Shown one piece after another: positions 4,613 through 37,246 of a stretch of 64,000 nt of DNA. Below the pieces are notes generated by a model. The model made no database searches, was not told the DNA's origin, and worked only from the letters and a program-made list of their open reading frames with translations. How positions within the stretch are numbered: position 1 is the stretch's first letter; every line of letters begins with the position of its first letter. Source of the DNA: Capsicum annuum (taxonomy: Eukaryota > Streptophyta > Magnoliopsida > Solanales > Solanaceae); NCBI RefSeq assembly GCF_002878395.1, contig NC_061115.1, positions 211,106,093-211,170,092 on the forward strand. Reading direction: 5' to 3'. The position numbers and the translations under genes are program-made.

Positions 4613-4648
4613 TCTTACTCTTCTATAAGATCTCTTCTCATATGTGAT

Positions 4649-4732
4649 GACATCATATCTTGAATAAGTCCATGATCTTCATTCAAAGAGGCATCATAGC
4701 TTGAATAAGTCCATAATCCTCATTCAAAGAGG
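4649..4732 (-). repeat. 41-bp tandem duplication at the WRKY C-terminus
   Basis: The sequence CTTGAATAAGTCCAT.AT and its surroundings occur twice, starting at 4659 and 4700, an offset of 41 bp. Because 41 is not a multiple of three, the duplication changes the reading frame at the WRKY C-terminus. The first-read copy runs into a stop after AMMPL. Confidence 0.85.
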
Positions 4733-4897
4733 AAAAAGAGCTCCTGAACCTTCTTTCTTGTAGTGAATTATTAGTTGAAAATAAGGAAGAGGAATCACCA
4801 TAACAAGTTCTTCCTCGACTATCACCACCACCTATGACTCCATCGTAGTTGGTGGTTACCGTCTGAACGCCGACATACCCCTTAGGCGTTACGGTGC

Positions 4898-5156
4898 CAA
4901 GGGCAGATCTAGCATTGCGGGTACGGGTTCCCAGGAACCCCAAACATTTTTGTATACGTTGTAATTATATTAAAAATCTATTAAATATATAAGAATGATA
5001 AGTGAGGAACCATTAACAAAGTTGTTAGTTGGCTTAATGGTTCAAAAGGGGCTTGAAGAAATGTCTCACATGCTATACCCAAGTTTGAATCTCCTTGCGA
5101 CGACTATTTTTTATTTTATTGGAACCCCCAAACATAAAATTTTGGATCCGCCTCTG
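4898..5156 (-). mobile_element. hAT-type MITE in WRKY exon 3
   Basis: A 259-bp non-coding element with imperfect terminal inverted repeats: CAAGGGCAGATCTAG at the left, and CAGAGGCGGATCCAA on the opposite strand at the right. It is flanked by an 8-bp target duplication, TACGGTGC (4890-4897) and TACGGGGC (5157-5164), matching at 7 of 8 positions. Eight-base duplications and CAG-type ends are typical of hAT elements. Removing the element and one duplication leaves the WRKY frame continuous, so it hit a coding exon. The AT-rich core has no transposase. Confidence 0.85.
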
Positions 5157-5277
5157 TACGGGGCAGTGATGCGTGTGTGTACCTTCATTAGTTTTAACAA
5201 CGATTGAAGTATCTTGAATTGACCTTTCCATTCTCTTCTTCACAGTACATGATGTTGTTGTGCAACGATAGTAGTTC

Positions 5278-6166
5278 CTGCATGCACAAGACATTTTATG
5301 CATATATCTCACACTTGCGTTATAAGACTACTTACTGACGAAAGGAAAAAAGAAATATTCATAAGCAAGATGCTTTGAGCATCAAACAATCCTTTTATAC
5401 ACTTTGTCCATCTCATGAGACAAGGAATTTGAAAAACGTCGACTCTTTGCATGTATGGTAAAGTGTCCGTAGAATTTATAATTTTAAACCCTTTTTACAT
5501 ATTCTTGTAACTATATATTAGATCATGTTATTATTAAAGATAAAAAAAATTAAAGGAAAAGAATGTGCTATATTTTTAATAAAAATATAAAGGAAAGAAA
5601 GTAATATAAAATGTGAGAGATATAGAGAAAGTAGCAAGTTCTTTGTAGAACTTTATTTTATCTACACTGTCGGTGTAAGAAAAAAATATTATATCATCTC
5701 AATATTTTTATCTATTGTAGAAGCTGCTAACCTTATATAGTTATACTTTAATGTCACGTGTATATATCCTTTAGATGACCTGATGACTTTTAGTTTACTA
5801 GGTTATAAATTAAAACATGTACATGCATAATAAATGGAGTTCTTAAAACAAATGCAAATTTGGACAAAAATTGCTGAGCTCAGCGCAGCTCGTACCTTAG
5901 TCTCTAGATCCGGAACTGTGGATATATGAGAACAATGTATGTAACTTAACCTCATTTTCTTTTCAAATAAATCTCTTGCTTAGAGCCTAAGACTTAAGCA
6001 AATAATGTGGCATTTCTTGTTTGCCGTGTAGGTGTGAAATATGCATATGACTTTTCTCTTATTCTTTTCATTCACACACCTTTGTGAGTCTTGCAATGTG
6101 TGAATCTAGATTTAATTGGATCTCAATGTGAATATCGGGTGAAAAACAATATGTAAATACACATAC
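5278..6166 (-). other. WRKY copy 1, intron 2 (PR-type)
   Basis: An 889-bp intron between exons 2 and 3 with both consensus ends kept: donor GTATGT at 6166-6161 and acceptor GCAG ending at 5278. It splits an Arg codon as AG|G, the characteristic position in most plant WRKY domains. The sequence is AT-rich; I see no inserted element in it beyond a 12-bp palindrome GCTGAGCTCAGC near 5873. Confidence 0.8.
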
Positions 6167-6310
6167 CTTCGAAAGGGGCTGTTTTAAACTGCTTTTTGGC
6201 GATATTTCCTCCATCTATAACCATCATCCAAGTGATCAATTTCACTCTTTGTCATGAATGCAAATCTTGGCTCTCTTTTACCCTTTTGGTTCTTCCTTTT
6301 AGGTTTTAAC
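6167..6310 (-). pseudogene. WRKY transcription factor copy 1, exon 2 (broken)
   Basis: A 144-nt minus-strand exon beginning after TTTTCTTAG at 6311 and ending at the GTATGT donor. It encodes [18 protein letters not shown], then [18 protein letters not shown], the N-terminal half of a WRKY domain with its basic, nuclear-localisation-like lead. Three lesions are visible in the most conserved stretch. The heptad is WRKYRQK instead of WRKYGQK (Gly to Arg). The next conserved Lys is a TAA stop (KAV*NS). The Pro before the final Arg is Arg. In WRKY proteins the heptad contacts the W-box major groove, so these changes abolish normal function. The phase (first base G completing a CAG codon with exon 1) fits the exon 1 ends at 19389 and 37009. 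Confidence 0.9.
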
Positions 6311-6428
6311 CTAAGAAAACAAAAAATTCATATCACATTTTGCCGAAAGGGAAAACTTCAAATAAAAGAAACTACTAAAGGGGAAACACCCAAAAACAAT
6401 TCAAGTAATCAGATGATGATGTACATAT
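6311..6428 (-). other. WRKY copy 1, intron 1, exon-2-proximal part
   Basis: A short AT-rich intron segment between exon 2 and the copia insertion. It ends with the CATAT target sequence (6424-6428), which recurs at 18624-18628 after the copia element. The rest of the intron lies at 18629-19388. Confidence 0.75.
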
Positions 6429-6583
6429 TGATAAGTGACAATTATTTAAATTATTTTAGATTACTATTGCACCTAAGAGGGTAACTACAGTTAATAGTTT
6501 AGCTTTATCTTCTCATTTATAGATGTACAACTATATATATCATTGTATTGTAAACCATATTCGTCAAGAAATATATTGTTTGA
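6429..6583 (+). repeat. Copia 5' LTR
   Basis: A 155-bp LTR starting TGATAAGTGACAATTA. It ends AATATATTGTTTGA, where the 3' copy has TTTCA, so the terminal CA has mutated to GA. The two copies are similar along their whole length, with a scatter of substitutions and small indels. Confidence 0.92.
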
Positions 6584-6620
6584 TGGTATCAAATGTCTAG
6601 ATTTTCTCTGCTATTGAATC

Positions 6621-7650
6621 ATGACTTCCAATAACTCTACTCAATCAGTTTCTTCTACATCGGCCTCCTTCACTGAAGCTTCCTCCCTTCTTCCGTCCTC
6701 TTCCTCTGCAGTTTTTGTCTCTAACATTAAAAATTTGGTTTGCACTATTCTTGACTATACAAAATTATATTTTTTGGAGGGAACTTTTCCTACCGGTTTT
6801 CAAAGGTCATGGTGTTTACGGATTTATTGATGGAAGTTTCCCTTGTCCTGAGCCTACTACTCTGAGGGATGATCGTACCTCTGTCCCTAATCCTTCCTTT
6901 AAAAAATGGATTCAACTTGATTCCGTTGTTCCTTCATGGATTCAAGCAACTATTTCTCAAGAGATACTTCAACCAATAATCAAACCTAATCATTCGCTCA
7001 CTTCTAGAGATGCATGGCTTCAAATTGAGTGTTTATCCTGCGATCAAGTTAGTTCTCGAACACTTCAACTCAAAGTTCAATTTCATAATCTTAAGAAAGG
7101 TAATCTCTCTATTAATGAATATGTCCATCTCGCGTGAAGTCCATAGTTGATGCCTTGACCTCTATTGGAAATCCTATATCTGATTTTGATCTTGTTCTCC
7201 AAATACTCTCTGGCTTAACTTCTGAATATATGTCTGTGAGCACCTCTATCTCCACTCATGTTCCTCCTCTTTCTTTTTTTGAGGCACTCTCCTTACTTTT
7301 TCTCCATGAATCTCAATTGACCAGTTTCTCAAATTCGTCTACGGATAATGCTACCACTACTTTTATGGCCAAGCAACAATTTTCTTCCTCTTATGGTCGG
7401 GGACGTGGTTTCCATTCCAATGGCGGTTGTATTTGTGGTCATCAAAATCAAGGGAATGGCAGATCCTTCACTAGGCTGCCTCCATAGTTCACTCCTCGTC
7501 CTCATCTTTCTTCTATCCTAGGTCCTCCTCCCTTTCCCTATTCAGCTTCTTACATTCCATCTCAACCCATAAATGTAGCTATTTACTACCAAATTTTCTA
7601 TCAACCAAATCATAGTGCTCGTGATTGTCCATCTCTGCATTCTAAGGCCT
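6621..7650 (+). pseudogene. Copia gag (broken)
   Basis: The frame from 6621 (MTSNNSTQSV) shifts near 6800 into the frame 6715-7137 and again into 7134-7487. Typical copia gag features are visible: the SFKKWIQLDSVVPSWIQ block, SREAW-like SRDAWLQIE and NLKKGNLSINEYV. A Gly-rich stretch follows. The zinc knuckle, usually C-X2-C-X4-H-X4-C, is degenerate at about 7580-7640 (YYQIFYQPNHSARDCPS), with the first two cysteines replaced. In the intact family this protein forms the cytoplasmic virus-like particle. Two frameshifts and the stop at 7485 make it non-functional. Confidence 0.85.
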
Positions 7651-7652
7651 TT

Positions 7653-8250
7653 ATGTCAGATGTTAGTTCTAATTACTCAGCATCTACACCTGGTGGTGCT
7701 TCGTGGTATGTTGATACTAGAGCCTCTTCTCACATGACTTCTAATGCTTCCTATTTATCCTCTATTACTCCATACAATAGCTCAGATCATGTAGTTGTGG
7801 GTAATGGAACTCAAATCCCTATCTCCTACATTGGACATGGTACTCTCGCTTCCTCTGATAATCTTTTTATGCTTAAAGATATTTTAGTTCTTCCTTATCT
7901 TTCTACTAATTTATTGTGTGTTCGTAAATTTGTTATGGACAATAATTATTCCATGGATTTTTATCTTTAGGGTTTTTCCATTAAGGAACTCATGACGAAG
8001 AAGCCCCTACTCCGGTGCAATAGTTCTGGACCACTCTATGCAATTTCTTCTCATTGCGGTGATTCTGTTGCAACTTTTCATTCTACTCTTGTTATTTCTT
8101 AGGTCTCTCTAAACCTTTGGCATTGTCTTCTAGGACTTCCAAGCTCTTCTATTTTAGCTAGTTTAGTTAAGGACAATAAATTACCTTGTTCTTCATTCAA
8201 AAGTTTAGAGTATATATGTACCGCTTGTCAACTTGGCAAGCACCAAAAGT
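7653..8250 (+). pseudogene. Copia protease and GAG-pre-integrase region (broken)
   Basis: The frame 7653-7970 carries the protease entry WYVDTRASSHMT, where the family has D-[ST]-G-A; the glycine is Arg, which should inactivate the aspartic protease. After a stop at 7968 the pre-integrase domain follows at about 8110-8250, with LWHCLLGLPSSS (normally LWHxRLGHPS) and the CTACQLGKHQKLSF zinc-binding end. The usual His is lost from LGHPS. Stops interrupt the segment at 7968 and 8101. Confidence 0.82.
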
Positions 8251-9236
8251 TGTCATTTATGGATTCTTGCTCTTTTTATTCATCTCTATTTGAATTCATT
8301 CATAGTGATAGTTGGACTTCCCCTATTGCATATTTTACTAGTTTTCGATATTATCTTCCATTCCATGATGATTTCACAAAGTTTTCATGGGTATTTCCTC
8401 TCAAGTGTAAATCCAATATTTTTTCTATGTTTAAGCAATTTTATGCCTATGTCTTGACCCAATTTTCTACAAAATTAAAGGCTCTTCAATATGATGGGTC
8501 TGCGGAGTTTTCTAAACTCCAGGCCTTTCATTCATTTCTTAATGATAATGGTGTTTTGCTTCGTATTTCTTTTCCTCACACTCATCAACAAAATGGTAAA
8601 GCTGAATGGATACATCACACAATTTTAAATATGGTCCATTCATTATTATTTCAAGCCTCTCTTCCCTCTCAATTTTGGGTTGAAGCGTTAAACATAGTTG
8701 TCCATCTTTTAAATATCCTCCCGTTGTCTAAACTTCAATTTAAAATGCCATTTGAAGCTCTCTTTGCAAAGGTTCCTAGCTACCATCATCTATGTTCTTT
8801 TAGTTGTTTATGTTATCCCAATTTACATGAATATTCTTCTTACAAGTTGAGTCCTCATTCAAAACATTGTGTTTTTCTTCATTATCCTTCCAACTACAAA
8901 GGATATATATGTTTGGATCCTACAACTAACAAAGTATTTATCTCTAGGCATGTTCGGTTCAACAAGGATTTCTTTCTTTATCCTTATCTTCTGGCCTCAA
9001 CTTCATCGCAAGTTAGCCCTTCTAGTCTATTTAAACTTCCCTTTTTGATTGATATTTCTCCTCCTTTATTTTCAATGGTGTCTCCTAATTTCCAGGATAT
9101 TAACTTTCAAAGGAGTGCACCATTTTTATCTCCTATTAATGCTGAAAATTCTTATCCTATATCTCATCACCATCTCAAATTCATTCTAATTTCACTCCAC
9201 CTACTGGACACCAAACTCCAATCTCCACATCAATAG
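8250..9236 (+). pseudogene. Copia integrase (largely open)
   Basis: A 328-residue open frame covers the integrase catalytic core. Recognisable blocks are IHSDSWTSP, DDFTKFSWVFPLK, LQYDGSAEF and PHTHQQNGKAEWIHHTI, containing the D, D and E positions of the DD35E triad. The C-terminal FHEYSSYKLSPHSKHCVFLHY-type region is seen as LSPHSKHCVFLHYPSNYKG. NGKAEWIHH replaces the usual NGxxERxHR. The frame ends at 9234 in the spacer before reverse transcriptase. It is the best-preserved gene of the element but lies in a polyprotein broken on both sides. Confidence 0.85.
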
Positions 9237-9429
9237 TTGGTCAACAAGACATCCCATATTCCTCTCCAAATGTTAGTCCTTACACTTCTTTACCTCTTAA
9301 TTCTACTTCTCCGGATCAATTACCAACCTTACCATCTTATTCAAAGATTCATCCCATGATTACCCATAAGAAAACAGGGTCTCTCAAGCCTTGAGTCCTT
9401 GCTTCTCTTCTTTCTCATTCCTCCACACT

Positions 9430-10293
9430 TCTATCTAAACCTTCATCTTTTACGGAAGCTTCTAAGTGTCCTAATTGGAGATGTGCTATGGCCGATGAAA
9501 ACATTTATTTTATGGCTCATCGCACCTGGACATTAGTTCCACCTCCTCCGCATGCCAATATTATTGATTGTCGTTGGTTATATTGTATAAAACAAAAATC
9601 TGAAGGTTCTCTGGAGTATTTTAAGGCTCTTCGTGTAGCCCGAGGCTACAAATAACAACAAAGACTAGACGATGATCAAACGTTTAGTCCAATGGTGAAA
9701 CTAGTCACTATTCACACTATTTTAGCCCTTGCTGCATCTAAGAAATGGCAAGTCCATAAATTAGACATTAAGAATGCCTTTTACATGGCAATCTTGATGA
9801 ATTAGTATCCATGAAGCAACCTACTGGCTTTGTTCATCCATAATTTCCTCATCATGTTTGTCGGTTGAACAAAGCCTTTTATGGCTTAAAACAAGCTCCT
9901 CGAGCATGGTTTCATAGGTTCACTTCCTTTATTTTAAGAAATGGATTTAAAAATAGCATGTCTAATCCATCTTTTTTCATTTACAAACATAATTCAGACA
10001 TGGCTATTCTTCTCTATGTTTTTGATTTTCTCCTTACTGCTTCTTCTAATTATTTACTGAAGTCTTTAATTCAAACTCTTAAATCTGCATTTTCCATGAA
10101 TTACTTAGGTTTAGTTACTTATTTTCTTGGTATTTCTATAGTTGCTCACAGTGGAGGTTATTTTCTTTGTCATTCCAAGTATGTAAAAGACCTTCTTATT
10201 CGTGCAAATTTGTTATCTTCAAAACCGGTTTCAACTTCTCTATCTCCTAAGTCTCTACTTCATTCTGAAGATTGTCCTCCTTTTTTTGATTGA
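9430..10293 (+). pseudogene. Copia reverse transcriptase (broken)
   Basis: Starts with WRCAMADEN-type sequence (normally W..AM..E) at about 9477 and continues to 10293. Visible blocks are TWTLVPPPP, VARGYK, TFSPMVKLVTI, HKLDIKNAF and LNKAFYGLKQAPRAWF. The catalytic Y-V-D-D motif reads YVFDF, so the first of the two essential aspartates is lost. Frame breaks occur near 9650 and 9790-9865. In the intact element the enzyme copies the transcript inside the particle. Confidence 0.87.
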
Positions 10294-10850
10294 ACACTTT
10301 ACAGAAGCCTTGTTGGTGGTTTCCAGTACTTAAATACTACCCGTCTAGACATTGCTTTTGTTGTTAATCAAGTGTCTCAATTTATGCATTCTTCTTTGGC
10401 CATTCATTATACTATCATCAAAAAAATTTTGTGATATTTGCAAGGTTCTGTGGATCATGGGTTATTTATTCTTGGTGGCTCTACTAACGGCTTACAATGT
10501 TACAGTGATGCGGACTAGGTTGGTTCCCTACCACTCATCGATCTACTTTAGCATACTGCATCTTTATTGGTCAAAATCTTATATCTTGGTCTTCTAAGAA
10601 ATAAAATGTTGTTTCTCGATCAAGTGCAGAGGTTGGATACACGGCAGTTGCTCAAGCAACTGCTGAAATAACATAGTACATTTGCTTCTACGTAAAATTC
10701 ATATTTCTCCTTCTTCTTCTATAATTTTTTGTGACAATATTAGCAGTATTTATCTAGCACTCAATCTTGTTCAGCACGATCGTCCAAGCATGTTAAAATT
10801 GATATTCACTTTGATCGTGAAAAGGTTGTCACAGGTGTTCTTTAGGTTCA
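10294..10850 (+). pseudogene. Copia RNase H, first part
   Basis: Contains the post-RT connection (YRSLVGGFQYLNTTRLDIAF-like, about 10300-10360) and RNase H pieces such as SSRSSAEVGYTAVAQATAE (about 10615-10670) and IFCDNISSIYLALN (10715-10760). Several stops and shifts break it. It is cut at 10850 inside the HIHFDREKVVTGVL stretch by the gypsy insertion. The sequence resumes at 18344 (QYVPTQDQLVDLLTK), so the original frame ran through. Confidence 0.82.
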
Positions 10851-13127
10851 TGTCACGACCTGAATCGAGGGCATAGTCGCGATGGACATCCCAAACCATA
10901 AAGGCCTGAGAGCCCTTCTCTAACTGGCAATCATACACTTAATAAATATACTGTAAGGACAATGCAGAAGAACATGACAAGACAGAAATATGGTCATTCT
11001 TTTATTTCAACTGAACAATACGAAAATGAGTTCATAAAACATTCAAAAACACCTGATGCTAGTCTACAAAATCTCTAACAGCTCAAAAACACTACTGTCC
11101 CAGTCGGACCATAAACCAAAATAAAATATCAATGTCAAATCAACAAAGCCTTCCAAAATAAGGGAGGCTCACCAACTGCAAACTTCGGACAATCCAATCT
11201 ACTACTTAGCTAAATCCTGGGACTGTGTCTCAAATCCTGAAATATAGGGGGTCATTAAAGATGTATTGGTATGCAGAGAAATCCAAAATAATGTATTTAT
11301 ATATAACATAAGTGAGAGCAATTGATAAAAATATTTTACATATAATTATGAAAACACATGGGCACGCTTTAAAGACTTTAAAACATTTCTTTGAATTCAC
11401 GACTCACTCTTTATCTTACTTCTGAGCTAGATGGTACACCCTATAATCTGCAATTCCACGGGCTATATGGAATCCTTCCTTGACTGGCGGCCAAGCCTCT
11501 AGTTTAAGTTTACTGCAAGGATTGTAGTATCAGTAAGGAGAGACACGTAAGACCACATGTATGCTGCCATGATCCCCAATCAAATCAATATGTCATGGTA
11601 GTGCACAATATCACAAAGCATAGCTCCTAACCATAATTCCAAATTGGGATGATATGAATCAAGGTACACAAGCCCACAAAGCATGGTACCATAACCCCGT
11701 GTCGACAAATCACGGTTTCTAGCGTTGAGTCTTTCAACTCAAACTTTATTTTGATAACCATCTAACTCTCTTTAAGACCATTTTTAACGTTTTTCAAATA
11801 TGCATCTTTCTATATTCAAAATCCAAAAATTAGAGTAAAATCTGTATTTTAGTCTGTTCTGAATCTGTTATGGCATTCATCTGTTTGGTATCGTCATACC
11901 AAGACTTGCAAGTCATATCTCTAAGCCTTAAAATATCATATTATAGTACTTTCATTCAAAACAAGATGTTTGGATCACCCAATCATTCAAATAGTACAAA
12001 AGAACTCATATTTCCAAAAACATATGTCAAACTATGCAAAAACTCTTTTTTTTCAACATTTCAATAAATGGTGGTCAATTTCTCAAGATAATCATTCAAT
12101 TCATTTGATTATAACATTCAGCCTTTGCAAACAAGAATATGCCTCTCTTCCATTCACAATCCACATAAAATTCATAATTGATAATAAAACTCTCCTTTCA
12201 TGCTTTAAGATATGCAATTGAGTAATCCAAGACTTGTCAATCAAGAAATAACACCATGAGAGAGGGAAATACGTTATTCATGCTCTCAATTCATATTTCA
12301 AAACTGAAAACACATATATACATATACATGAGTAAAACTTCAAGATTTAGGGAAGGCCTCAAGACCAAAATTCTCCCAATGCATACTTCTAAATATAATT
12401 CCAAACCCTTCATAAAATGTTATTAGAAATAATTTCATCATGACCATAAAGTTTAGAAAATTCCACGTACCTTATATTACTTAGTTTAAAGAGTAGAACT
12501 CAAATCTTGATTTATTTCTTAGAAATCTTGGACTAAGAGTTCGATTTTTGATCTTGAAGGAAACCCTATTTTCTATCTTGTTCTTGAGAGTGGAAAGGAT
12601 TGATATGTGTTTAAAACTAATAAAAGATGGATTATAACGCTTAATGCATGATTTAAATTAGTGTGAGAGGTTTCTGGGAAGGAAAAGAACCAAAACACCC
12701 CATTAAAAATGTTTCTTCTGAGCAACTCGGCCTCAACTTACGGTTTTCTTGACGGAACATCATTTGGGTGATGAATCATCACTCCAACCGTTAGTTCTTG
12801 GCCAGATAAAGATATCACTACCTGAGTTTTGAAAGAAATCTTGACGGGCCATCATTGTCTTGACGGTCCGTCAGTCTGACTGTTACAATTCGTCAGACTG
12901 ACACCACTCTAGAAAATGGGCATAACTTTTTACTCAGCTATCGGATTAAGGAGAAATGGGTGGCATTGGAAATAATACTCAATGAACTTTCATTTGATAT
13001 ATAGTAGGCCCTATAACTCATTATATATAAGAATTTATAGTTGATGGACGTTGACGCAAGTTTAGACGTTTACCAAAACTTAATCGAAAGAAGAGTTTTC
13101 AACTCGTCTTTGAGATAGGGGATTTTT

Positions 13128-15645
13128 TGTAAAACCCCGAGTCTGTACCCCAAACGCTACACGATCCTCATAATCCCGAAGGACCACAAGCTAACCCATG
13201 ACTGGTACCTACTGCAATAGCTAAATAATAATACTATAAAATATGTAGAAATTAGGCAAAAAATATGCCATAAGGTTCAATACTGTAATAAACTAAATAT
13301 AGTATAGTAATACCAAAACTGATACATCTGTCAGAAAATACTTTATCCTGGAAAGCCTTTAAACTATCTGAAATAGGGAGTTGATGGGACAGGTCCCCAA
13401 CTAACTCTGACTAATGAAATAGACTAAAATGTTAAAATAATAATCATGTCCTCGAACTATAAGGACTCACCACTAACTCTGACTGTTGAAGATCTAAACT
13501 GCTAAGGATACTCAGGAGCCCATGCGTATAAACCTATGATATAAGACATCATAGTGCAAAAGAAAAGTATTTGTCAGTACTTTGAATATACTGGTATGCT
13601 AAGTGAGGTAGGCTGAAATGCAAGGTTTCATATGCCTGAAAAATACTAACTGAATGACATGAATATAACTAAATGAAAGTACATGCATGAATACGTATAC
13701 TGTAACTGAGATCGCGATAACACTGGATACTGAGTCTGAATACTGATTTACTAAAATCTGAGATTACTGACAGTGTACTATTGATAATTGAATGACTATA
13801 TCTGATAGTCCTAATTCTGTGGAACTATACTGAGTTCCATATTGAATTGAGTGACTGTGTTTGATAGTCCTGAATTTGTAGAACTGAACTAAGTTCTATT
13901 CTGAGACTGGAACTAAAACTAAAACTGTGGGAGGTAGTCATCTAATTGACATGCCCCTCTTTGAACTGATTGGGGTCCAACCTGTAACCCCAGTTGGAAG
14001 GGAGTCAACACTGTGCCATGGGTAAGGATAAGCTGAGTCACCCTCATCTGGCAGGTGCTCTGAACGAGAATGGTGGTACCCTTAACTGGCAGATAGATCA
14101 CCTAATCAACCCTCAACTGGCAGGTTAATGTCTCAACCAACGCTAGCTATGTAGTTCTGGAACACAAGTACTGCTTCTAAGGATCACACCCTCTACTGGC
14201 AGGTAAGTCCCCATCCTTGGGTTCACTCAGTGCTGAATCCTACTCCCAACTAATAGACACTAGACTTATTACTAAACTGTTCTAAGCTGGACTGAACTAT
14301 TACTGATCATACTATTTAATTAAACTGAACTGAGTTCACTGAGTTTCGTTAACTGATGGAAACTACTGAATTCCGTTAACTAATTGAATTTACTGTGGTC
14401 TGAACTGAATATTGAACTGGATTAGACTTATACTGAGTCTACTGATTTTTTTCTGAGTTTTATAACTGACTGAGAGTACTACTGATTGTGACATGACTGA
14501 TATTATCCTATGACTAACCATGGCTGTAGGTAATCAGCTAAATTTTTGGATATTAAATACCTCCAGGACTCGATAGCATAAATTATAAGACATGGCACAA
14601 TCTTGAAACATGATAAATAACTACTCAATCATTATTCATTCATTCATTGGGGAATTCTAATGAACGTTTGCGTGACATGAACTTGAATACAGGCTAACAT
14701 GATATAATTTCATTATTTAATTCTCATGAACAACTCACCAAATACTTGGAAGGCATTGTATATGCGCATAGTACTAATCAACACATGAGTATCACAATTT
14801 CAAGGCTTTAACATGAATTCACATAATTCCATATGAATAATAGTTGTTTTTACATAAATCTTTCACTTAAGCATGGAATAGAAATCCAATCAATATTATA
14901 GTCATGAATACACTTGAATCAAAATCATGGAAAACATGAAATCTGGCTACTCGGAGTTTAAAAGAGTTTCTTGGACTCCAAGGGTGGAATGAACCCTTGG
15001 ATAAACACTTGACATACCTTGGTTTCTAAATTCTTGAAGATTAATAGTGAAATCCTGAGCCTTGAATTTGAAATTTAATCTTCTAGGATTTTGTTCTTAA
15101 GTGTTTTGAGAAAGAATGAATATAATTTGCTTATTGAGGGCTAAATCTCGTGTTATGGGGCTGAAAGACGTGGGAAAAAACCCTATTTCCCCTGAGGATG
15201 CAGCTTTTTAATGACTAAAAACTAAATCATCAACACATAGACCGATACGCCGAGTCATTGGCATCAACATGATAGCCAATGCATTACATCGAGTCTATGT
15301 CGGTTCACTGGAAATTGCCACTGGAAGCCAAGGAAAATATTGATCGATACGATGGCTGACACGCCGCATCAAGATCGCGTCGATACACTATTTTGGATTC
15401 CCAAACGTGGTTCAAACGAGGTTTGAAAAATCCGAAACTCATCCGGGAACACTACTAACCTTCCTGATCATGAATCAACCTAAAGATTTATATTTTAAAG
15501 TAATAGAGGTCGTGAAATAGAGTTACCAACTTACGAAGGCCAAAATGACACTAAGTTTGAATACTTAGCTAAAATTTTCTAAGTCTGGGACCCGTTAGCA
15601 AGCTTAAAAGACTGAGTTGAGCTTTGGATTTTGCAGGGTCTTACA
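13128..15645 (-). repeat. Tekay-like 3' LTR (subfamily A)
   Basis: A 2518-bp LTR from TGTAAAACCCCGAGTC to GCAGGGTCTTACA. It shares recognisable blocks with the LTRs at 21343 and 31066: CCACAAGCTAACCCATGACTG, GGTACCTACTG, the ATGATATAAGACATCATAG palindromic region, GTAACCCCAGTTGGAAGG, and the GATATTAAATACC(T/C)CCAGGACTCGAT block. A GC-richer array with GATACGCCGAGTCATTGG-type units lies at about 15240-15420. Confidence 0.88.
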
Positions 15646-15989
15646 ATATCTCCCCCTTGGGAACATTCATCCTCGAATGAGATTGATTAAACTGAGATAC
15701 TGATAAACTGAATTTAGACACTGAACATGCACAACTGAAGCTTGATTTTATGACTGAAATTATGTATACTGAATTATCATACTGAACATGCATATCTAAT
15801 TCATGATTACATAGCTGAACATGATTCATGAATGCATGACTAGGATTACTGATAAGCTAATCTTATATACTGGACATACATGTCTGATGCATGAGTACTT
15901 AACTGAAGTGATTCGTGAATGCATGACTGATTATGCAACATTAATTAATACCAAGTTGGTAGCTATATCTGAACATGAGACTGAGTAAT

Positions 15990-17065
15990 TCAAAGGAAAA
16001 CTATTACCTTGAGATAAGTCTGAGGTTGCAGAGAAAAGGTGAGGGTACTTGGTCCGCATGTCTGCTTCTTCTTCCAAGTAGCTCCCTCAATGAACTGATT
16101 CCACCAAAGAACTTTGACTAGAGGGACTTCTTTATTCCTCATTCTATGAGTCTGATAATCAAGGATTTTGACTTGGATCTCTTCATAAAAGAGGTTGCTT
16201 TGAATATCTATGCCCTCTATAGGAACTACGGCTGCTGGTTCACCTATGTATTTCTTAAGCAAGGAGACATGGAACATTGGAGGCACTAAAGCTAAGTCTA
16301 AAGGCAACTCAAGCTCGTAATCTACCTTTTCGAAATGGCTGAGAATTCGGTAAGAACCGACATATCAAGGACTGAGTTTCCCCTTCTTGCCAAACCTCTT
16401 CACTCTTTTCATAGGAGAGATTTTCAAATACATAAAATCACCAATCTCTAACTCAAGATCCTTTCTATATACATCTGTGTACATCAACGTACGATTTCTG
16501 TCAGCTCAGAGCTATCTTAAGCCTTTCCCCAATAAACTAAACTTTCTCTAAGGTATTAAATACCAAGTCAGTCCCCACCACCACGGCCTCACCCAATTCA
16601 AACCAACCAATGGGAGATATACACCTTCTCCCATAGAGCACCTCTAATAGAGTTATCTAACTGCTAGAACATTAGTTGTTGTTATACGCGAATTCAATCA
16701 AAGGCAAGTGGTCATCTTAACTACCTTTAAAGTCTATCGTACATGCTCATATCATATCTTCTAAAGTCTAAATGGTCCTTTCTGCTTGACCATCTATCTG
16801 AGGATGAAAGGCTGTATTGAGGTGAACTCAGATACCAAGACCTTTTTTGAATGCCTTCTAGAAATAAAAGGTGAACTCGGTACCTCTATCTGATATAATG
16901 GATAACAGAACATCGTGAAATCTGATGAACTCCCTGATATAGAGTTTGGCATAATCCTTGACTGAGTAAGAGGTATGGACTGGTAGGAAATGAGCTGATT
17001 TGGTCATTCTATCTACAATGACCCAGACTAAATCATGCTGACGACGACTATGAGGTAATCCCATT
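15990..17065 (-). pseudogene. Gypsy integrase C-terminus with chromodomain (broken)
   Basis: Minus-strand 17064-16858 encodes part of the integrase core (MTKSAHFLPVHTSYSVKDYA, IISDRGTEFT). The region 16840-16310 continues with stops, including the YIGPYRI- and KKGKLS-like junctions. The frame 16307-15990 carries PPMFHVSLLKKYIGEP and the chromodomain-like VKILDYQTHRMRNKEVPLV and KVLWWNQFIEGATW. A shift follows ATWKKK. A chromodomain behind integrase places the element among chromoviruses, probably Tekay/Del. In that group the domain is thought to guide insertion into heterochromatin. Confidence 0.85.
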
Positions 17066-17620
17066 CAGAATAAGACTATTCGGGATAAGGTTAGTGTGGC
17101 TTCGGTGGAGGATAAGATACGAGAGGTCCGTTTAAGATAGTTTGGACATGTGATGAGGAGGGGAACGGATGCTCCAGTTCATAGGTGTGTGAGGCTTGCT
17201 TTGGATGGTTTTAGGCGGGGCAGGGGTAGGCCGAAGAAATACTCGATAGAGGTGATTAGGCGGGACATGGAGAAATTACAACTTACTAAGGACATGACAC
17301 TAGATAGGAAGATCTGGAGAACGCGTATTAGGATAGAAGGCTAGTGACTTTTTCGGTAGGTAGGATAGGGCTTTACTTGGCCGGTGCAGTATTCTTGTTA
17401 TACTGCATTACGATTGCTTACTATTCTTTGCTTACTACTACTTATAGGTGGCATATTTATGTCATGTCATATTGTTTCATGCTTTGTGTACGTTTTTGAT
17501 GACTTATCTTATCTTGAGCCGGGGGTCTATCGGAAATAGCCTTGCTACATCTCCGGAGATAGTGGTATGGACTGCGTACATCTTACCCTCCCCAGACCTC
17601 ACTATGTGGGTTGTTGTTAT
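17066..17620 (+). mobile_element. RTE LINE 3' end fragment
   Basis: A plus-strand 5'-truncated LINE. The coding tail 17150-17344 reads [36 protein letters not shown] and DRKIWRTRI, the standard C-terminal end of plant RTE LINE polyproteins. The 3' untranslated region follows with GAGCCGGGGGTCTATCGGAA, then CTCCCCAGACCTCACTATG, and ends TGGGTTGTTGTTAT, the TTG tail of the family. It lies between the integrase end and the 5' LTR remnant of the Tekay-like element. A LINE insertion alone would not delete the missing 3-4 kb. Confidence 0.88.
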
Positions 17621-18193
17621 AATCTCCTAGGGTTTTTGTTCTTGAGTATTTTGAGAAAGAATGAATATAATTTGCTAATTGAGGGGTAAATCTCGTGTTA
17701 CAGGGGTTGAAGGACGTGGAAAAAAGATCCTATTACCTCTTAGGATGTGGCTTTTTAATGACTGAAAACTGAATTGCCGACGCCTAGACCGACGTGCCGA
17801 GTCATTGGGATCGACGTGATAGCCAACGCGCTGCGTCGATTTTGCGTTGGTTCACTAGAAATTTCCACTGGAAGCCAAGAAAAATATTGATCGACGCGAT
17901 TGTTGATGTACCGCATCGAGATCACGTTGATACACTATTTTGGATTCCCAAACATGGTTCAAATGAGGTCCAAAAAATTTGAAACTCGTCTGGAAACACC
18001 TACTGACCTTCCTTATCATGAATCAACCTAAAGATTAACATTTTAAGGTCATAGAGATTATAAAATAGAGTTGCCAACTTACGAAGGCCAAAATGACACT
18101 AAGTTTGAAGACTTAGCTAAAAATTTCTAATTCTGGGACCCCTTAGCAAGCTTTAAAGACTGAGTTGAGCTTAGGATTTTGCGGGTTCTTACA
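17621..18193 (-). repeat. Truncated 5' LTR of the Tekay-like element
   Basis: A 573-bp fragment matching the last part of the 3' LTR (about 15078-15645) at nearly every block: GAGAAAGAATGAATATAATT, CGACGCGATTGTTGATG-type GC units, GATCATGAATCAACCTAAAG and GGGTTCTTACA. The boundary on the left coincides with the LINE tail. Confidence 0.87.
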
Positions 18194-18338
18194 TTTTGTG
18201 ACCTCAATTCATATTAAAAAGTATTCTCACATTGTAGGATTGATCATCACACATATATCAACAAAGAATTATTGGGTTCGGGTCTAAACGCGTAGGAACG
18301 ACGATTTAAATTTTAGTCCGAAAGTGCGGGGTGTTACA

Positions 18339-18464
18339 GTTCAATATGTCCCTACTCAAGATCAACTTGTTGATTTATTAACCAAGGTACTTTCTTTACC
18401 AAGATTGTTGTTCCTACATGCAAAGCTCTGCATTCTTCCAGATTGTTCATCACTTGAGGGGGAG
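18339..18464 (+). pseudogene. Copia RNase H, last part
   Basis: Continues the frame interrupted at 10850: QYVPTQDQLVDLLTKVLSLP is the conserved end of copia RNase H (normally EDQLADIFTK). The polypurine tract GAGGGGGAG follows, adjoining the 3' LTR at 18465. Confidence 0.85.
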
Positions 18465-18623
18465 TGATAAGTGACAATCAATTATTTAAATTATTCTGGA
18501 TTGCTATTGTACTTAAGAGGATAACTACAGTTAGAAGTTTAGCCTTATCTTCTCATTTATTAATGTACAACTATATATATCATTGTATTGTAAACCATAT
18601 TCATCAAGAAATATATTATTTCA
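18465..18623 (+). repeat. Copia 3' LTR
   Basis: A 159-bp partner of the LTR at 6429, starting TGATAAGTGACAATCA and ending TTATTTCA, followed by the target duplication CATAT. It shares the ATGTACAACTATATATATC block with the 5' LTR. Confidence 0.92.
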
Positions 18624-18628
18624 CATAT

Positions 18629-19388
18629 GTTTAGAAACACTTTAATTCCCTTCGACGATATTTGTTAGTCAAAACTACAGTTGAATTTTCAGGTCGTCAT
18701 TGGACTAATAATTTTAAGTTCAGAAAGTAACTTTCTTTATATGGGAGAAAACTGAAATCAAGAAGGTAACTATTTGTGTTAATAACAAACAATTAGTAAA
18801 CTGACCATCTGAGAAACTAGCCTGTCAAAACTATTGAAGATATAAGTAAGGAAGATATGCTTTTTTTAATATTTTTTTAAAGTGTTTTGTATCAACGTTA
18901 TGTCAGAACAAGCAAAGATTTCAGTTCTAATCAAACTCCACCTTTCATCAAAATGATTTTTTATGTATTTGACCCTTACAAAAAAAAATATTAACATGTG
19001 TAAGACATGAGGATTGTTTTAGAAACATAAATATTATTGATGTAGCTATAAAAACTTCTCATTCAACATAAAATTATTAGATTCATAAATTTAGAAAAGA
19101 TATTTTTTAAAAAAAATGGAGGGGGTGGGGGAAACTAAATATGGGGTAACTTAAACAAAACAAACAATTGAGTGCGGAAAAAATTTTATAGTTAAACAGC
19201 AAAAATCTCATACTAATCTCAACAGTTCACCGTTCTATAGAAAATCCAGTTAGCTAACAGTTATTTAGTGACAAGTTAGCTAAGTATTACCTATAATTTT
19301 TATCATAGCTAATTTCATGTTTTCTAATAATCGATCAGACTAAAAGAAATATACATTTTATCCATAAAGAAGTAAAATTTTAGCTTGC
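18629..19388 (-). other. WRKY copy 1, intron 1, exon-1-proximal part
   Basis: AT-rich non-coding sequence between the copia element and exon 1. The exon-adjacent part (about 19345-19388) matches the corresponding intron of copy 2 (about 36968-37008). The donor, expected GTAAGT, reads GCAAGC at 19388-19383. No further element was recognised. Confidence 0.7.
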
Positions 19389-19513
19389 GATTTCTTATAC
19401 TTGTTTTGATGTTGCTCTCCATCTTGCTGGTTCACCTGTTTTGCTTATTGATAGTCATCAGCAGGTGATTCAGTTTATGATGAAGAAATCGATGATAAAT
19501 TTGGAGTCACTGC
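19389..19513 (-). pseudogene. WRKY transcription factor copy 1, exon 1, 3' part
   Basis: Minus-strand coding remnant with TPNLSSISSS, then TESPADDYQ, then a Gln/Lys-rich end QQDGEQHQNKYKK leading into exon 2 ([10 protein letters not shown]). The homologous segment in copy 2 (37009-37140) reads TLNLSSISSSSTELPTDDYQ. A frame break or stop is present before AKQVNQQ. Serine-rich and acidic segments before the basic lead of the domain are usual in group IIc proteins. The TRIM-like element ends at 19514 with flank ACTGC. Confidence 0.82.
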
Positions 19514-20885
19514 TGTTGGATTCGAAAGCGAGAGGGCGTCATGCGGAAGCTTAAAGTTTACAAACCAAACCATTGATAATTCAGATGACACAACCTAAAA
19601 TACTTAAAAAATATATAATATTATTATATGATTTGGCCATTGACCTACATATGAAAACCTAATATCGAAGAATCATTAAACCTATTGGGAGAAATATCCC
19701 CTAAACAAGACTCTTTAATGACTACATTGTGGATACTATTGCGTTAAGGTATGAAAAGAGGGATCTTCTATTTACAGAGTTTCAAAATCTTTCCTCCAAG
19801 AAAGAGGTTAGTCAAATATAGAAAAGAATTATATTTTTCTTTCAGGAAAAGTAAAAATAATTATGATATTACTTTTATTTTCCTTTCAACAAAAAGTAAA
19901 ACTTAAATTTGGTAAGAGAATTAGGGCAAAAACCCTAACAAATCTCCCCTTTTGGCTTGATGTTCTTCACTTGATCTGCCTTCTTCACATGCATGAACTT
20001 CGTTCTTCACATAATCTTCACCACTACTGCTTGTCATGGTTAAAAACAAGATTTAAAATATTATGACTAAAAGTGTATTAAAAATAATTATTTTATATTT
20101 ATTTTTAAAGATGCAGCAACAGAATTGTTGAAATATGCTTAAAACTTCTTCTTCACATGTAACTAAACAAAATTGTCATTATCACAAAACTAGTTGTAGC
20201 TTGATTGTGAAACCGCTTTGAACCTGTATTTAATATCGTTTCACCAAACCATTAGACCTTTGAACCATAGGCTCGGATACCACTTGTTATGTTCGAAATT
20301 GCTAGGGCGTCATGTGGAAAATTAAAGTTTGCAAATTAAGAGAATGATAATTCAGATGACAAATAAAAGTATAATAAAAAAATATATTATTGATATTATT
20401 TAGCCAATTGGCCTACACATGAAAACTAATATTAAAGAAAACACAAAACTATTGGGAGAAAATCTCTCCCAAAATAAGACTCTTAAACGACTACATTATG
20501 GATGTTATTGTGATATTGTATGAGAAGGGGGTATTTTATTTATAGAGTTTTAAAACCTTTCCACCAAGAAAGAGATTGGCCAAATATAGAAAAAAATTAT
20601 ATTTTCCTTTAAGGAAAGGTAAAAAGGGCTGTCCGGTGCACTAAAGCTATCACTATACACGGTATCTGGGGAAGGACCCCACCACAAGGGTGTACTGTAT
20701 GTAGTCTTACCTTGTATTTTTGTTAGAGGATGTTTATAAGGCTTGAACCCATGACCTCCTGGTCACTTGAAAGTAAGTTTACCAGTCACGGAAAAATATA
20801 AGTAATTATGTTATTACTTTTATTTTCCTTTCAAGAAAAAGTAAAACTTAAATTTGGTAAGAAAATCATGACAATAATTCTAATA
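19514..20885 (-). mobile_element. Small non-coding LTR element (TRIM/SMART-like) in WRKY exon 1
   Basis: Two LTR copies, 19514-19940 (427 bp) and 20285-20885 (601 bp including a SINE), surround only 344 bp of internal DNA. On the minus strand the 5' LTR end (CATAACA) is followed after 2 nt by TGGTATCCGAGCC (20282-20270), an initiator-Met tRNA primer site. The polypurine tract AAAAGGGGAGATT precedes the 3' LTR start TGTTAGGG at 19940. The flanks are ACTGC (19509-19513) and ACTGT (20886-20890), a 4-of-5 target duplication. There is no gag-pol, so it was mobilised in trans or is an internally deleted derivative. LTRs of about 430 bp are at the upper end for TRIMs. Confidence 0.85.
20626..20790 (+). 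mobile_element. tRNA-derived SINE (Au-like)
   Basis: An insertion of about 165 bp present in one LTR copy of the small element and absent from the other. It starts GGGCTGTCCGGTGCACTAAA and carries GGCTTGAACCCATGACC, a B-box-like RNA polymerase III promoter element, then CTCCTGGTCACTTG. The sequence resembles the widespread plant Au SINE from memory. Flanking GGTAAAAA and GGAAAAAT may be the remnant of the target duplication. Confidence 0.72.
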
Positions 20886-21222
20886 ACTGTAACATTAATC
20901 ATGTGATTAGATATTGATCAATCTTGAATTGTAGAAGTAGTAATCATAGGTTGATGAGGGGGTTCATGATGAGGTGGCAACATTAGCAAATCGAAACTAG
21001 AACTACTAGTTGTTGTTGTGAAATTATTATCAAAGTATGTGGATTATCAATAGTAGTAGTACCAAACATAGTTTCTAATAAAAAGTTTAATGAATAATCT
21101 TTTTCAATATCAAAGTTGTTGCTCATCATGTTTGGATTGTTGACAAATGTACTTCAATTTCCATTTCTATTTCCATTTTCAATTGAAGAGTACTCTAATT
21201 ATAGATTATTTTCTTTCTCCAT
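20886..21222 (-). pseudogene. WRKY transcription factor copy 1, exon 1, 5' part
   Basis: The likely start codon is at 21222-21220 (MEKENNL). Minus-strand frames then give SSIENGNRNGN, NPNMMSNNFDIEKDYSLNF, FGTTTIDN and, after a frameshift near 21045, SSSSFDLLMLPPHHEPPHQP. The last stretch is repeated in copy 2 (SDLLMFPPHHEPLHYP). Stops occur at codon 8, at about codon 23, and after TTSTIQD. It is the N-terminal regulatory part of the WRKY protein. Its 3' continuation is displaced to 19513 by the small LTR element; across the junction the sequence matches copy 2 once a single target duplication is counted. Confidence 0.82.
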
Positions 21223-21342: not shown

Positions 21343-23676
21343 TGTAACGCCATGAGTCTGTACACTAAACGCTACACGGTGCTTACAACCCCGAAGAACC
21401 ATAAGCTAACCTATGACTGGTACCTACTGTGAGAACTGAATAATAATAATACTGCAACAATAATATTACTAAAATAAATAAAATAATTAGGCTGAAGTCG
21501 CCATATGGTTCACAACTGGAAACAAATACTGAATACTGAAAATTGAATATCTATCTGAAAGTCTCTCACTGTCTGAATATGGAGTTGATGGGACAAGTCC
21601 CCAACTAAATCCGTCTACTGAATATGCAGAACTACTGAAATACAAAAAGATAACATCATCCTCGAACTATGAAGACTCTTCACTAAATCTATTGTTGATA
21701 CTCTGGGCTGCTAAGTGCGGTCAGGAGCCCGTGCATCTAAACCCATGATATAAGACATCATAGCATAAGACAAAAGTATATATTAGTAATTTGAATATAG
21801 TAGTATGCTAAGTGAGGTAGGATGATATGCATGGGTTCATATGAATAGACAACAACTAGCTGAGTAATATGAACGTAACTAAATGAGAGTACATGCATGA
21901 ATATATAAACTGTAAATGAGATTATGTTAACACTGGATACTAAATTCTGAATACTAATTAACTAATATATGAGTTTACTGATACTATAGTACTGATAATG
22001 AGTGATTATATCTGACAATCCTGATTCTATAAAACTGAACTGAGCTCTATATTGAGACCAAAATTGAAACTGTGAGAGGAAGTTATCTAACCGACATGCC
22101 CCTCTCAAATTGGATATGGGTTCAACCTGTAACCCCAGTTGGAAGGGTGTCAATATCGTGACACGGGTAAAGATAAGTTATGAGTTAACCGTCTCTGACA
22201 GGAAGCACTTTTGTCAACCCTCGCTGGCAGGAAAACTCATGTGACATGTATCAACCTTAGTCTAAAAGGAAGATATCTCAACTTACACTGGCAATGTAGT
22301 TCTATAACACAGGGATTGCTACTAAGGGTCAAACCCTATGCTGATAGGAATGCCCCCATCCCTAGGTCCGCTCGGTGCTGATTCCTACTTCCAACTAAAT
22401 AGACACTAAACTAATTTCTAAACTGTACTAGACTTCATTGAACTGTTACTGATCGTACTTTCTAATTGAACTAAACTAAGTACACTGAGTTCTTAACTGA
22501 TTACTGAACCAACACTGGGACTGATTATAGAGTATTACTATTCATGACTCTACTGAGACTGTTCTGTAACTAATGTAGCTCTAGGTAAACAGCTAGATTT
22601 TTGGATATTGAATACCCCCAGGATTCGATAATATGAAAAGTAAAATACTGCATGACTTTAGTGGCATAATAGTAATTGCTTACTAATAATGCATTCATTT
22701 AGACATTTTTGTCAACCACTTTATATACATGAGCTTGTGCATGAACGAAATCACATAATAACATGCCATACTTGCACAAGTCAATTCACATAAGCATTTT
22801 GAAAAACACTTGGAGAGAATTGGTATTTCACATATCAATAAACATGTAATACTATCATGGATACTACATTCAACTTGTAATTCAAGAGTTCAACATGAAG
22901 TTCACGTAATTCAATCCACAATTAACTAGTTTTCATGAAGCTTGTGATAAATCATGGAATGGAAAACTTATTTAACACCATAATCAAGATTACAATCAAT
23001 CCAACATGAAATCTATGAGATCAATTAACTTTCAGTTAAAAAGAGTTTCTTTAACTCCAAGGGTGGAAGAAAACCCTTGGATGAACACTTCAGATACCTT
23101 GGTACTTGAATTTGCTAAGACTGATGGTGTGTTCTTGAAGCTTAAATTTGAAATTAAATCCCCTAGGGTTTATTCTTGAGAGAAATTTGAGAGAAAGTGA
23201 ATGTTTTTTCCCTAGGAATGACTTAATCTCGTATTTTTGGGGATGAATAGGGGTTCAAAATGACCCAATTATCCCTCACAATGTGGGCTTTTAATGATTG
23301 AATTTGTGCCCAGTGATGCACGGACCGATGTGCCATATTGATGGCATCAACACGATGACCAACGCGCCACATCGATTTTGCGTTGGTTTACTGAAAATTG
23401 GCACTGCAAGCTGCGATAGGCGACATGGCGCATCGAGATCGCGTTGATCCAACATGATTCAAATGATGTTTGAAAAATCCAAAACTTGTCTGAGAACACC
23501 TACTAACATACCTGATCATGAATCAACCTAAAAATCGACACTTTAATGTCTTCAGGGTCGGGAAAAAGGATCGCCTACTTATAAGGCTAAAAATAATCCT
23601 AAGTGTAAGCACTTAGCTGAAATTTCTAAGTATGGGACCCCTTATCAAGCTCTAAGGGCTGAGTTAAGCTTAGAAT
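21343..23676 (-). repeat. Tekay-like 3' LTR, subfamily A (missing its outermost bases)
   Basis: Starts TGTAACGCCATGAGTCTG and closely matches the LTR at 31066-33395 along its length; CAACAATAATATTACT and GACATTTTTGTCAACCACTT occur in both. It stops at AAGCTTAGAAT, about 16-20 bp before the TTTTGGGGTCTTACA end seen at 33395. The subfamily B LTR begins at the very next base. Confidence 0.85.
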
Positions 23677-30842: not shown

Positions 30843-31065
30843 GTTCTGTAAATGGAAGTAAGGAAAGGATTAGACTTAGATTTTAACTTGAGCTTATGCT
30901 CACTCGCATGACATGAATACTGAAAGGAGGGAAACTTTTCCTAAAACATCTCATAGTCTCTGGCCCATAAGTTTGGCGCGCTACACACCCATGTACAAGA
31001 TTCTACTAGACGTGGCTTTTAGACTTTCTAAGAATCTGTTAAACCTTAGGCTTTGATAACAAGTT

Positions 31066-36580: not shown

Positions 36581-36747
36581 TCAAGCTTTTGTTAATAGAA
36601 TTTGCTTTGTTGACTTTTTTATATTATATGCTTCAACTTGCTATCCAATATTTTTTTATGATTAATTTGGTTCAAAGATTCTTCTTCTTCTTCAATATAC
36701 GGTATTACGGTTTACAATATACTTTATGACCTGCTTCTTTTTTTAAA

Positions 36748-36787
36748 AGTACGAACACCCTTAACCAAAATTCTAGCTCCGCCATTG
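36748..36787 (-). repeat. Right terminal inverted repeat of the split hAT element
   Basis: On the minus strand this begins CAATGGCGGAGCTAGAATTT followed by TGGTTAAGGGTGTTCG. This form is common to terminal repeats of Solanaceae hAT elements of this class. Confidence 0.65.
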
Positions 36788-37008
36788 TGTTTATATTAGT
36801 GTTGTGTATAGGAGTTGGAGGTTGACTGTAAAAAATGCCGATGGAAGATTATTAGTAGTCTTTAAGTGAAAAATAAATGTACTCCCTTAGATCACTATCG
36901 ACTTGAGATACAGAGTAAAAACTAATAAATGATATGAGATAATTTTATTATATTACTCTTTAAGTATAATTTACATTTTGTTCATAAAAAAGCAAAATGT
37001 TAACTTAT
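36788..37008 (-). other. WRKY copy 2, intron 1 fragment
   Basis: Non-coding DNA downstream (minus strand) of the copy 2 exon 1. Its exon-proximal 40 bp resemble intron 1 of copy 1. The splice donor reads ATAAGT instead of GTAAGT at 37008-37003, so splicing would fail. It is cut at 36787 by the hAT terminal repeat. Confidence 0.7.
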
Positions 37009-37246
37009 TGTTTCTTATACTTGTCTTGATCTTGCTCTCCATCCCACTGGTTCTCTTTTTTTGCTTTTTGATAATCATCAGTAGGTAATTCAGTTGATGA
37101 TGAAGAAATCGATGATAAATTTAGAGTGACTGGAACACTAATGAACTAATCAGATATTGATGAATCTTGAAGTGTAGAAGTAGTAATAATAGGATAATGA
37201 AGGGGTTCATGATGAGGTGGAAACATTAGCAAATCTGAAATGGAAA
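37009..37246 (-). pseudogene. WRKY transcription factor copy 2, partial exon 1
   Basis: The minus strand encodes SDLLMFPPHHEPLHYPIITT, STLQDSSISD, a stop, then FISVPVTLNLSSISSSSTEL, PTDDYQKAKKENQWDGEQDQ and DKYKKQ. It aligns along its whole length with both parts of copy 1 exon 1 and lacks the small LTR element found there. The last codon (CA plus the first G of exon 2) fits the exon 2 sequence [10 protein letters not shown]. The 5' half is missing because the subfamily C LTR begins at 37247. No exon 2 or exon 3 of this copy is present. Confidence 0.85.

Follow-up and report, generated by a model that had tools for sequence, protein, structure and literature searches.

The window analysed here is a 64,000-nucleotide stretch of Capsicum annuum DNA, corresponding to C5:211106093-211170092 of the assembly searched. 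Its minus strand carries the remains of a WRKY gene in three exons spread over 16.6 kb, and the exon borders listed in Table 1 hold both on translation and in the raw sequence. A small long terminal repeat (LTR) element lies in exon 1, a copia element in intron 1 and a miniature inverted-repeat transposable element (MITE) in exon 3. The original prediction, made from the letters alone, had described one broken group IIc WRKY gene with three ordered minus-strand exons, and this is confirmed by translation and by the Pfam score of the joined domain. Our analysis indicates that the relic is very probably a duplicated unprocessed pseudogene of the Capsicum WRKY48/23-like type (group IIc) and a member of a tandem array on C5. 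A related copy with a whole WRKY domain, copy A, lies 172 kb from the window.

The exon 2 piece of the relic scores 25.6 bits against the Pfam WRKY profile and the exon 3 piece 39.9 bits, and the two joined score 75 bits (cut-off 21); the domain also matches 13 distinct PDB sequences. The relic has one WRKY domain above the Pfam cut-off, as group IIc proteins have, and exon 3 retains the group IIc zinc finger CX4CX23HXH. The translation of exon 3 (5277-4615) runs RNYYRCTTTSCTVKKRMERSIQDTSIVVKTNEGTHTHHCPV, then into the MITE, and resumes as VTPKGYVGV. The heptapeptide WRKYGQK, present in copy A, is altered in the relic; the form WRKYRQK is interpreted as decay of a former group IIc member that leaves its kinship unaffected. 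The PR intron lies inside the domain, after AG and before G (CGAAG/GTATGT ... GCAG/GAACTAC), at the identical position in copy A, and the junction of exons 2 and 3 at AG/G is as had been predicted, with donor GT and acceptor AG present. The end of exon 1 is different. A terminal CA had been claimed, whereas window positions 19390-19389 read TC and are followed by a GC donor. Copy A exon 1 ends in CA before GTAAGT, and the Gln codon at the exon 1/exon 2 joint is therefore probably ancestral and lost in the window copy. A CA at 19387-19386 was rejected as the exon end: it gives an extra codon compared with aligned relatives, and the ungapped reading with the GC donor agrees with copy A.

In total, the window copy has six in-frame stops, five of them in exon 1 (three in its first part, two in its second) and the sixth in exon 2. 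Exon 1 has also lost one base, and exon 3 holds a tandem duplication of 41 bp at 4651-4732, which the original prediction had not mentioned. None of the three stops in the first part of exon 1 recurs in the other copies that allow a comparison. When the Capsicum chinense protein P0001 was compared with the window by tblastn, eight pieces scored 39.3-108 bits, of which seven make up the 16.6-kb relic and one a second relic, and three noise pieces scored 22.7-23.1 bits. Chance similarity is excluded for the eight pieces, as 50 first-order resampled windows peaked at 26.2 bits.

The three inserts were also part of the original prediction, and the borders and target repeats of each were found. The LTRs of the exon-1 element are about 427 bp long, and its 5' LTR, which is followed by the primer-binding-site-like sequence TGGTATCC, holds an extra insert of about 160-170 bp that resembles a short interspersed element (SINE). 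The copia element is 12.2 kb long and its LTRs are 91% identical over 155 columns (Kimura two-parameter distance, K2P, 0.098). It contains the Pfam domains RVT_2, Pol_BBD, gag_pre-integrs and SH3_retrovirus between 7488 and 10290, and a SH3_Tf2-1 piece at 15993-16364 that was taken as Gypsy-type; further repeats within it point to other, nested inserts. The MITE is presumably hAT-like, judging by its ends.

Table 1. Features of the WRKY relics in the window, their inserts and the related copies on C5 (window positions unless C5 is given)
Feature	Position	Strand	Remarks
Exon 1, 5' part	20886..21222	-	left target repeat ACAGT at 20890-20886; 3 in-frame stops and 1-base deletion
Exon 1, 3' part	19389..19513	-	right target repeat GCAGT; 2 in-frame stops; donor GC for GT
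Exon 2	6167..6310	-	WRKYRQK replaces WRKYGQK; one in-frame stop
Intron 2 (PR intron)	5278..6166	-	889 bp; donor GT (6166) and acceptor AG (5278) both kept
Exon 3, 5' part	5157..5277	-	zinc-finger half CX4C...HXH
Exon 3, 3' part	4615..4897	-	second MITE target repeat 4897-4890; 41-bp tandem duplication, frame shifted
Small LTR element in exon 1	19514..20885	-	LTRs 20885-20286 and 19940-19514; target repeats ACAGT/GCAGT
SINE-like insert in 5' LTR of exon-1 element	20640..20810 (approximate borders)	-	alignment gap
copia in intron 1	6429..18623	+	LTRs 6429-6583 and 18465-18623; CATAT at 6424-6428 and 18624-18628
MITE in exon 3	4898..5156	-	259 bp; 8-bp target repeats GCCCCGTA/GCACCGTA, one mismatch
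Annotated C. annuum T459_15180 (P0232, 131 aa)	4686..5303	-	exon 3 stretch, most of MITE treated as intron
Second WRKY relic, 3' part of exon 1 only	37009..37244	-	donor AT for GT; one in-frame stop
u1	C5 array	-	exon 3 only
u2, u4	C5 array	-	exon 1 only, two parts 6.5 and 13.9 kb apart
u3, u5, u6, u7	C5 array	-	exon 1 split by element, and exon 3
u8	C5 array	-	exon 1 only

The product of the window copy, with X at stops, was used for a protein search in which 1194 of 1470 candidates matched at E 0.001; the matches given here are from the best 120 of these 1194. The top match was P0001, named putative WRKY transcription factor 23, which is 72% identical to the query across its full length (E 1.5e-137). 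It was followed by P0002 of C. chacoense (67% over 92%) and by P0003-P0010 (55-61%); among these eight, three bear the name WRKY48, and the others are hypothetical or unnamed. The names WRKY48 and WRKY23 are labels of the source databases. A tree of 29 rows unites the Capsicum copies A and B with the window copy, which branches off first, in one clade (100/99) inside the Solanaceae 48-like group. The rows of copy B are P0002, in which half of the domain is missing, and the first part of P0022, a fused model from C. chinense; copy B may therefore be broken too.

In a second tree, of 23 rows with WRKY28, 71, 57 and 75 included, the window copy groups with C. chinense, potato and Datura rows (96/100). 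The five rows that bear the names 28 or 71 (P0127, P0137, P0140, P0158 and P0204; short models, one on a very long branch) form with the WRKY57 rows a separate clade (95/97), and the window copy lies outside both this clade and that of WRKY75. In other families, the rows that carry the names 48 and 23 do not make up a single clade but an unresolved fork. These trees place the group IIc relic nearest to the Solanaceae WRKY48/23-like proteins. With WRKY28/71-like proteins it has in common group IIc membership and the single WRKY domain, but they fall in another clade, and a WRKY28/71 identity is ruled out. The original prediction had expected all segments to hit one WRKY28/71-like orthologue; the joined product does match one protein, P0001, over its full length, but P0001 is of the other type. 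The window copy has the exon order, WRKY domain, zinc finger and C-terminal motif of the Solanaceae WRKY48/23-like proteins, and differs from them in its six stops, frameshift, WRKYRQK, GC donor and two exon insertions.

That automated annotation would miss this gene was predicted as well. The locus is, however, not free of annotation. Residues 1-56 of T459_15180 correspond to 5303-5136 and residues 58-131 to 4907-4686, and 130 of its 131 residues agree letter for letter. By this match, T459_15180 is a false model of exon 3, with its start within intron 2 and most of the MITE skipped as a false intron. It is mentioned in no paper found in the literature search. When short Capsicum fragments of exon 1 were sought among the proteins, five candidates came up, none of them at E 0.001.

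The window copy is not alone on C5, where 26 genome stretches were examined for the array. A genome search with PF03106 gave 151 matches, and among the matches listed eight are on the minus strand of C5 at 210.90-211.35 Mb and represent seven copies. In the contiguous 269.6 kb of C5:210,900,500-211,170,092, tblastn found ten copies, all on the minus strand; u2 and u4 are each counted as one copy, with the 5' LTR on one side and the 3' LTR on the other. With copy A the array has at least 11 copies, nearly all broken, and this is a lower bound since, of the 172 kb that separate A from the window, only 9.9 kb round A was read.

Eight copies, namely the window copy and u2-u8, carry the exon-1 element at one and the same site, and the SINE-like gap of about 160 bases is seen in all eight 5' LTRs. 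In a tree of the LTRs of six of these copies, those with both LTRs on one stretch, all 5' LTRs cluster together (100/100), as do all 3' LTRs (100/100). This separation indicates that the exon-1 element was inserted once and duplicated afterwards. Compared with the window copy, u3 lacks 79 bp at the end of exon 1 including the donor (19439/19360) and a segment that runs from intron 1 through exon 2 into intron 2 (18961/5744), and both joints show 4-bp overlaps. Both are common to u5, u6 and u7. Only the first can be compared in u2, u4 and u8, which have it, because no exon 3 of these copies was found by tblastn in the 269.6-kb stretch. The MITE is missing from A, u1, u3, u5, u6 and u7, and among the testable copies the copia and the MITE are seen in the window copy only; the copia site is deleted in the u3-type copies. 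The window copy differs from the others by K2P distances of 0.132-0.153 over the element and 0.092-0.110 over intron 2 and exon 3.

The original prediction explained the relic as a solitary WRKY gene that three transposons had disrupted in place. Its segments are ordered and on one strand and its splice sites match, as that account has it, but with ten copies within 270 kb and the exon-1 insertion common to eight of them we consider it highly improbable. The exon-1 element predates the duplication of the copies sharing it, and there are at least 11 copies on the same strand, so that the three inserts are not successive events in one isolated gene. As a full account it is refuted by the common insertion; it holds for the copia and the MITE only.

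The array could also be viewed as the product of retroduplication, in which a retrotransposon captures part of a gene and multiplies it, as in the NLR genes of pepper, which were multiplied in this way according to the excerpt of PMC5664825, and the region is rich in LTR elements. The window copy nevertheless retains both introns at the positions of copy A, every copy was found in one cluster on one strand, and u3 and u6 align as one 5.5-kb piece that extends about 2.3 kb beyond exon 3. No intron-less copies inside one LTR pair were seen in the stretch read. A processed pseudogene is expected to lack its introns and both are present here, by which a retrocopy origin is ruled out; retroduplication, like the lone gene, is highly improbable. 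The pepper NLR case, as far as the excerpt of PMC5664825 describes it, resembles the WRKY array in the species, the lineage-specific copies and the LTR-rich setting, and differs in that the WRKY copies keep their introns, lie on one strand in one cluster and include no retrocopies.

Tandem duplication of an unprocessed gene is supported by copy A and by the second relic, both of which show the exon-1 site in its empty state. Copy A (C5:211,342,064-211,344,561; L009:2565-5062; minus strand) is 92-98% identical to P0001 by piece and lacks the exon-1 element, the copia and the MITE; its intron 1 continues through the copia site (84.6% over 494 columns). In the assembly used, its last 30 codons include two in-frame stops, which P0001 does not have. 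In a comparison of the window with itself, 36968-37240 matched exon 1 and the start of intron 1 of the main relic at 84-87%. This second relic aligns without gaps across the site of the exon-1 element, and tblastn found no exons 2 and 3 of it in the window. Between the two relics, 13 of 76 sites differ at first codon positions, 9 of 76 at second and 9 of 75 at third positions. A short DNA tree built from the 3' part of exon 1 separates A and the second relic from the eight LTR-bearing copies (90/93).

The window copy keeps its introns, carries disabling lesions and has a related copy elsewhere, as a duplicated unprocessed pseudogene does, and its most probable history is as follows. A WRKY48-like gene would have been duplicated in the Capsicum lineage, and the small LTR element would then have entered exon 1 of one copy (target CCAGT), with the SINE-like insert landing later in its 5' LTR. 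The disrupted copy would have multiplied in tandem into at least eight copies. The 79-bp deletion at the end of exon 1 is common to seven of the eight, and the larger deletion that removed exon 2 is common as well to the four of these seven that retain exon 3; the window copy retains exon 2. Then or meanwhile, the window copy would have gained the intron-1 copia, the exon-3 MITE, its own stops and the 41-bp duplication. The gene parts, the common insertion and deletions and the empty sites are demonstrated; we infer the order of the private lesions, and likewise unequal crossing-over as the mechanism of copying. Judging from their sequences, none of the disrupted copies is likely to make a working WRKY protein.

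Changes since the duplication were counted against the majority sequence of the copies and compared with the numbers expected from the flanking spectrum. Exon 3 (five copies) has 61 nonsynonymous changes, 10 synonymous changes and 4 stops, with 96.8, 31.4 and 8.3 expected. The corresponding numbers for 108 codons of exon 1 (seven copies; u7, whose first half is foreign, was excluded) are 72, 28 and 6, with 123.6, 32.7 and 7.5 expected. Over both exons there are 133 nonsynonymous and 38 synonymous changes; the nonsynonymous share is thus 0.778, where the local non-coding spectrum predicts 0.775. Taken together, the changes in the two exons fit neutral drift, as is expected when purifying selection has been lost.

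Several observations weigh against such a history of a dead gene copied and drifting. Exon 1 alone leans to fewer nonsynonymous changes (share 0.72 against 0.79 expected, p 0.086, relatedness ignored), and its dN/dS against the majority is 0.36-1.47 and below 1 in six of eight copies, one of these six (u7) being badly aligned. The total of changes is below the flank prediction in exon 3 (75 against 136.5) and in exon 1 (106 against 163.8), which may come from constraint or from poorly aligned, faster flanks. The LTR pair of the exon-1 element differs by K 0.22 in the window copy and by 0.327-0.378 in the other five, and intron 1 of the window copy and A is still 84.6% identical although their split must predate the insertion. 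The dN/dS values and the nonsynonymous share of exon 1 were not read as selection. Exon 3 leans the opposite way (61 nonsynonymous, 10 synonymous; dN/dS 0.35-4.58 by counting), and positive selection on it is not claimed (share 0.86 against 0.755 expected, p 0.05, relatedness ignored). Synonymous changes are few in exon 3 (10 against 31 expected) and not in exon 1 (28 against 33).

It is conceivable, though unlikely, that the LTR-bearing copy worked for a time and multiplied while in use, and that the copies died later by their own lesions. The LTR-bearing copies have a majority sequence whose frame is open in the 108 exon-1 codons (seven copies) and in exon 3 (five copies), the early exon-1 stops of the window copy are private, exon 1 is slightly short of nonsynonymous changes, and the inner branches between the 5' and 3' LTR clades (0.09 and 0.098) suggest an interval before the duplication. 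The working form would perhaps have been a protein of exon 1 and the zinc finger without the WRKY motif, or one from which the element was spliced out, a suggestion to which we give a similarly low probability. Against such a period of use, the changes after duplication fit neutrality over both exons, the LTR clock conflicts with the intron clock, and in-frame splicing of the element is conjecture.

Because the LTR and intron clocks disagree, dates and lengths of intervals are unsafe and only the order of events is given for the duplicated pseudogene. The excerpt of PMC5664825 gives a pepper LTR rate of 1.3e-8 per site per year and species splits of 1.1-1.7 million years (My). This rate would put the age of the copia at 3.8 My, before those splits, and that of the exon-1 element at 8.5 My by the window LTR pair and 12.6-14.5 My by the other five; absolute dating was dropped.

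Tandem duplication and transposon-driven decay are known processes, and the window locus is a new, well-resolved case of them. Duplicated plant pseudogenes with nested transposons have in common with it the kept introns, the tandem copies, the private lesions and the transposable element inserts with target repeats. In the pepper array, unlike these, one exonic LTR insertion was inherited by eight copies, which means that the disrupted unit itself multiplied. The common exonic insertion, the common deletions and the private inserts make the order of events readable without a clock, and the array is a fossil record of the growth and death of a regulator family in a transposon-rich crop genome.

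In its excerpt, PMC6645504 assigns to chromosome 5, which is likely our C5, one WRKY gene only, CaWRKY25 (Group 1). The same excerpt describes the domains of CaWRKY1, CaWRKY12 and CaWRKY58 as deficient, CaWRKY58 (subgroup 2c) being without the WRKY core and with the zinc finger kept, and that of PMC6546733 names CaWRKY01 and CaWRKY12 as incomplete. By this description only, with identity unconfirmed, the make-up of CaWRKY58 resembles the u3-type copies. Further pepper WRKY papers, likewise in excerpt, are PMC5171846 and PMC10379288. No description of the array appeared in the titles and abstract starts of the part of the literature matches seen, which is no proof of absence. The example of T459_15180 warns that short WRKY models in the pepper annotation can be fragments of dead genes, which do not belong in a count of the family. 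Copy A has a whole WRKY domain and two late stops, which makes the WRKY48-like function in C. annuum a testable question.

The rest of the window contains other repeats. LTR-like repeats of one family lie at 13126-14357, 21343-22501, 31064-33395 and 44772-45663, one of them within the copia and one directly upstream of WRKY exon 1. A reverse-transcriptase piece (RVT_1) at 1117-1961 on the minus strand is probably a relic of a long interspersed element. Pieces of hAT-type transposases (DUF4371, BED finger and hAT dimerisation domain) are found on the plus strand at 34862-38898 and 62381-63446.

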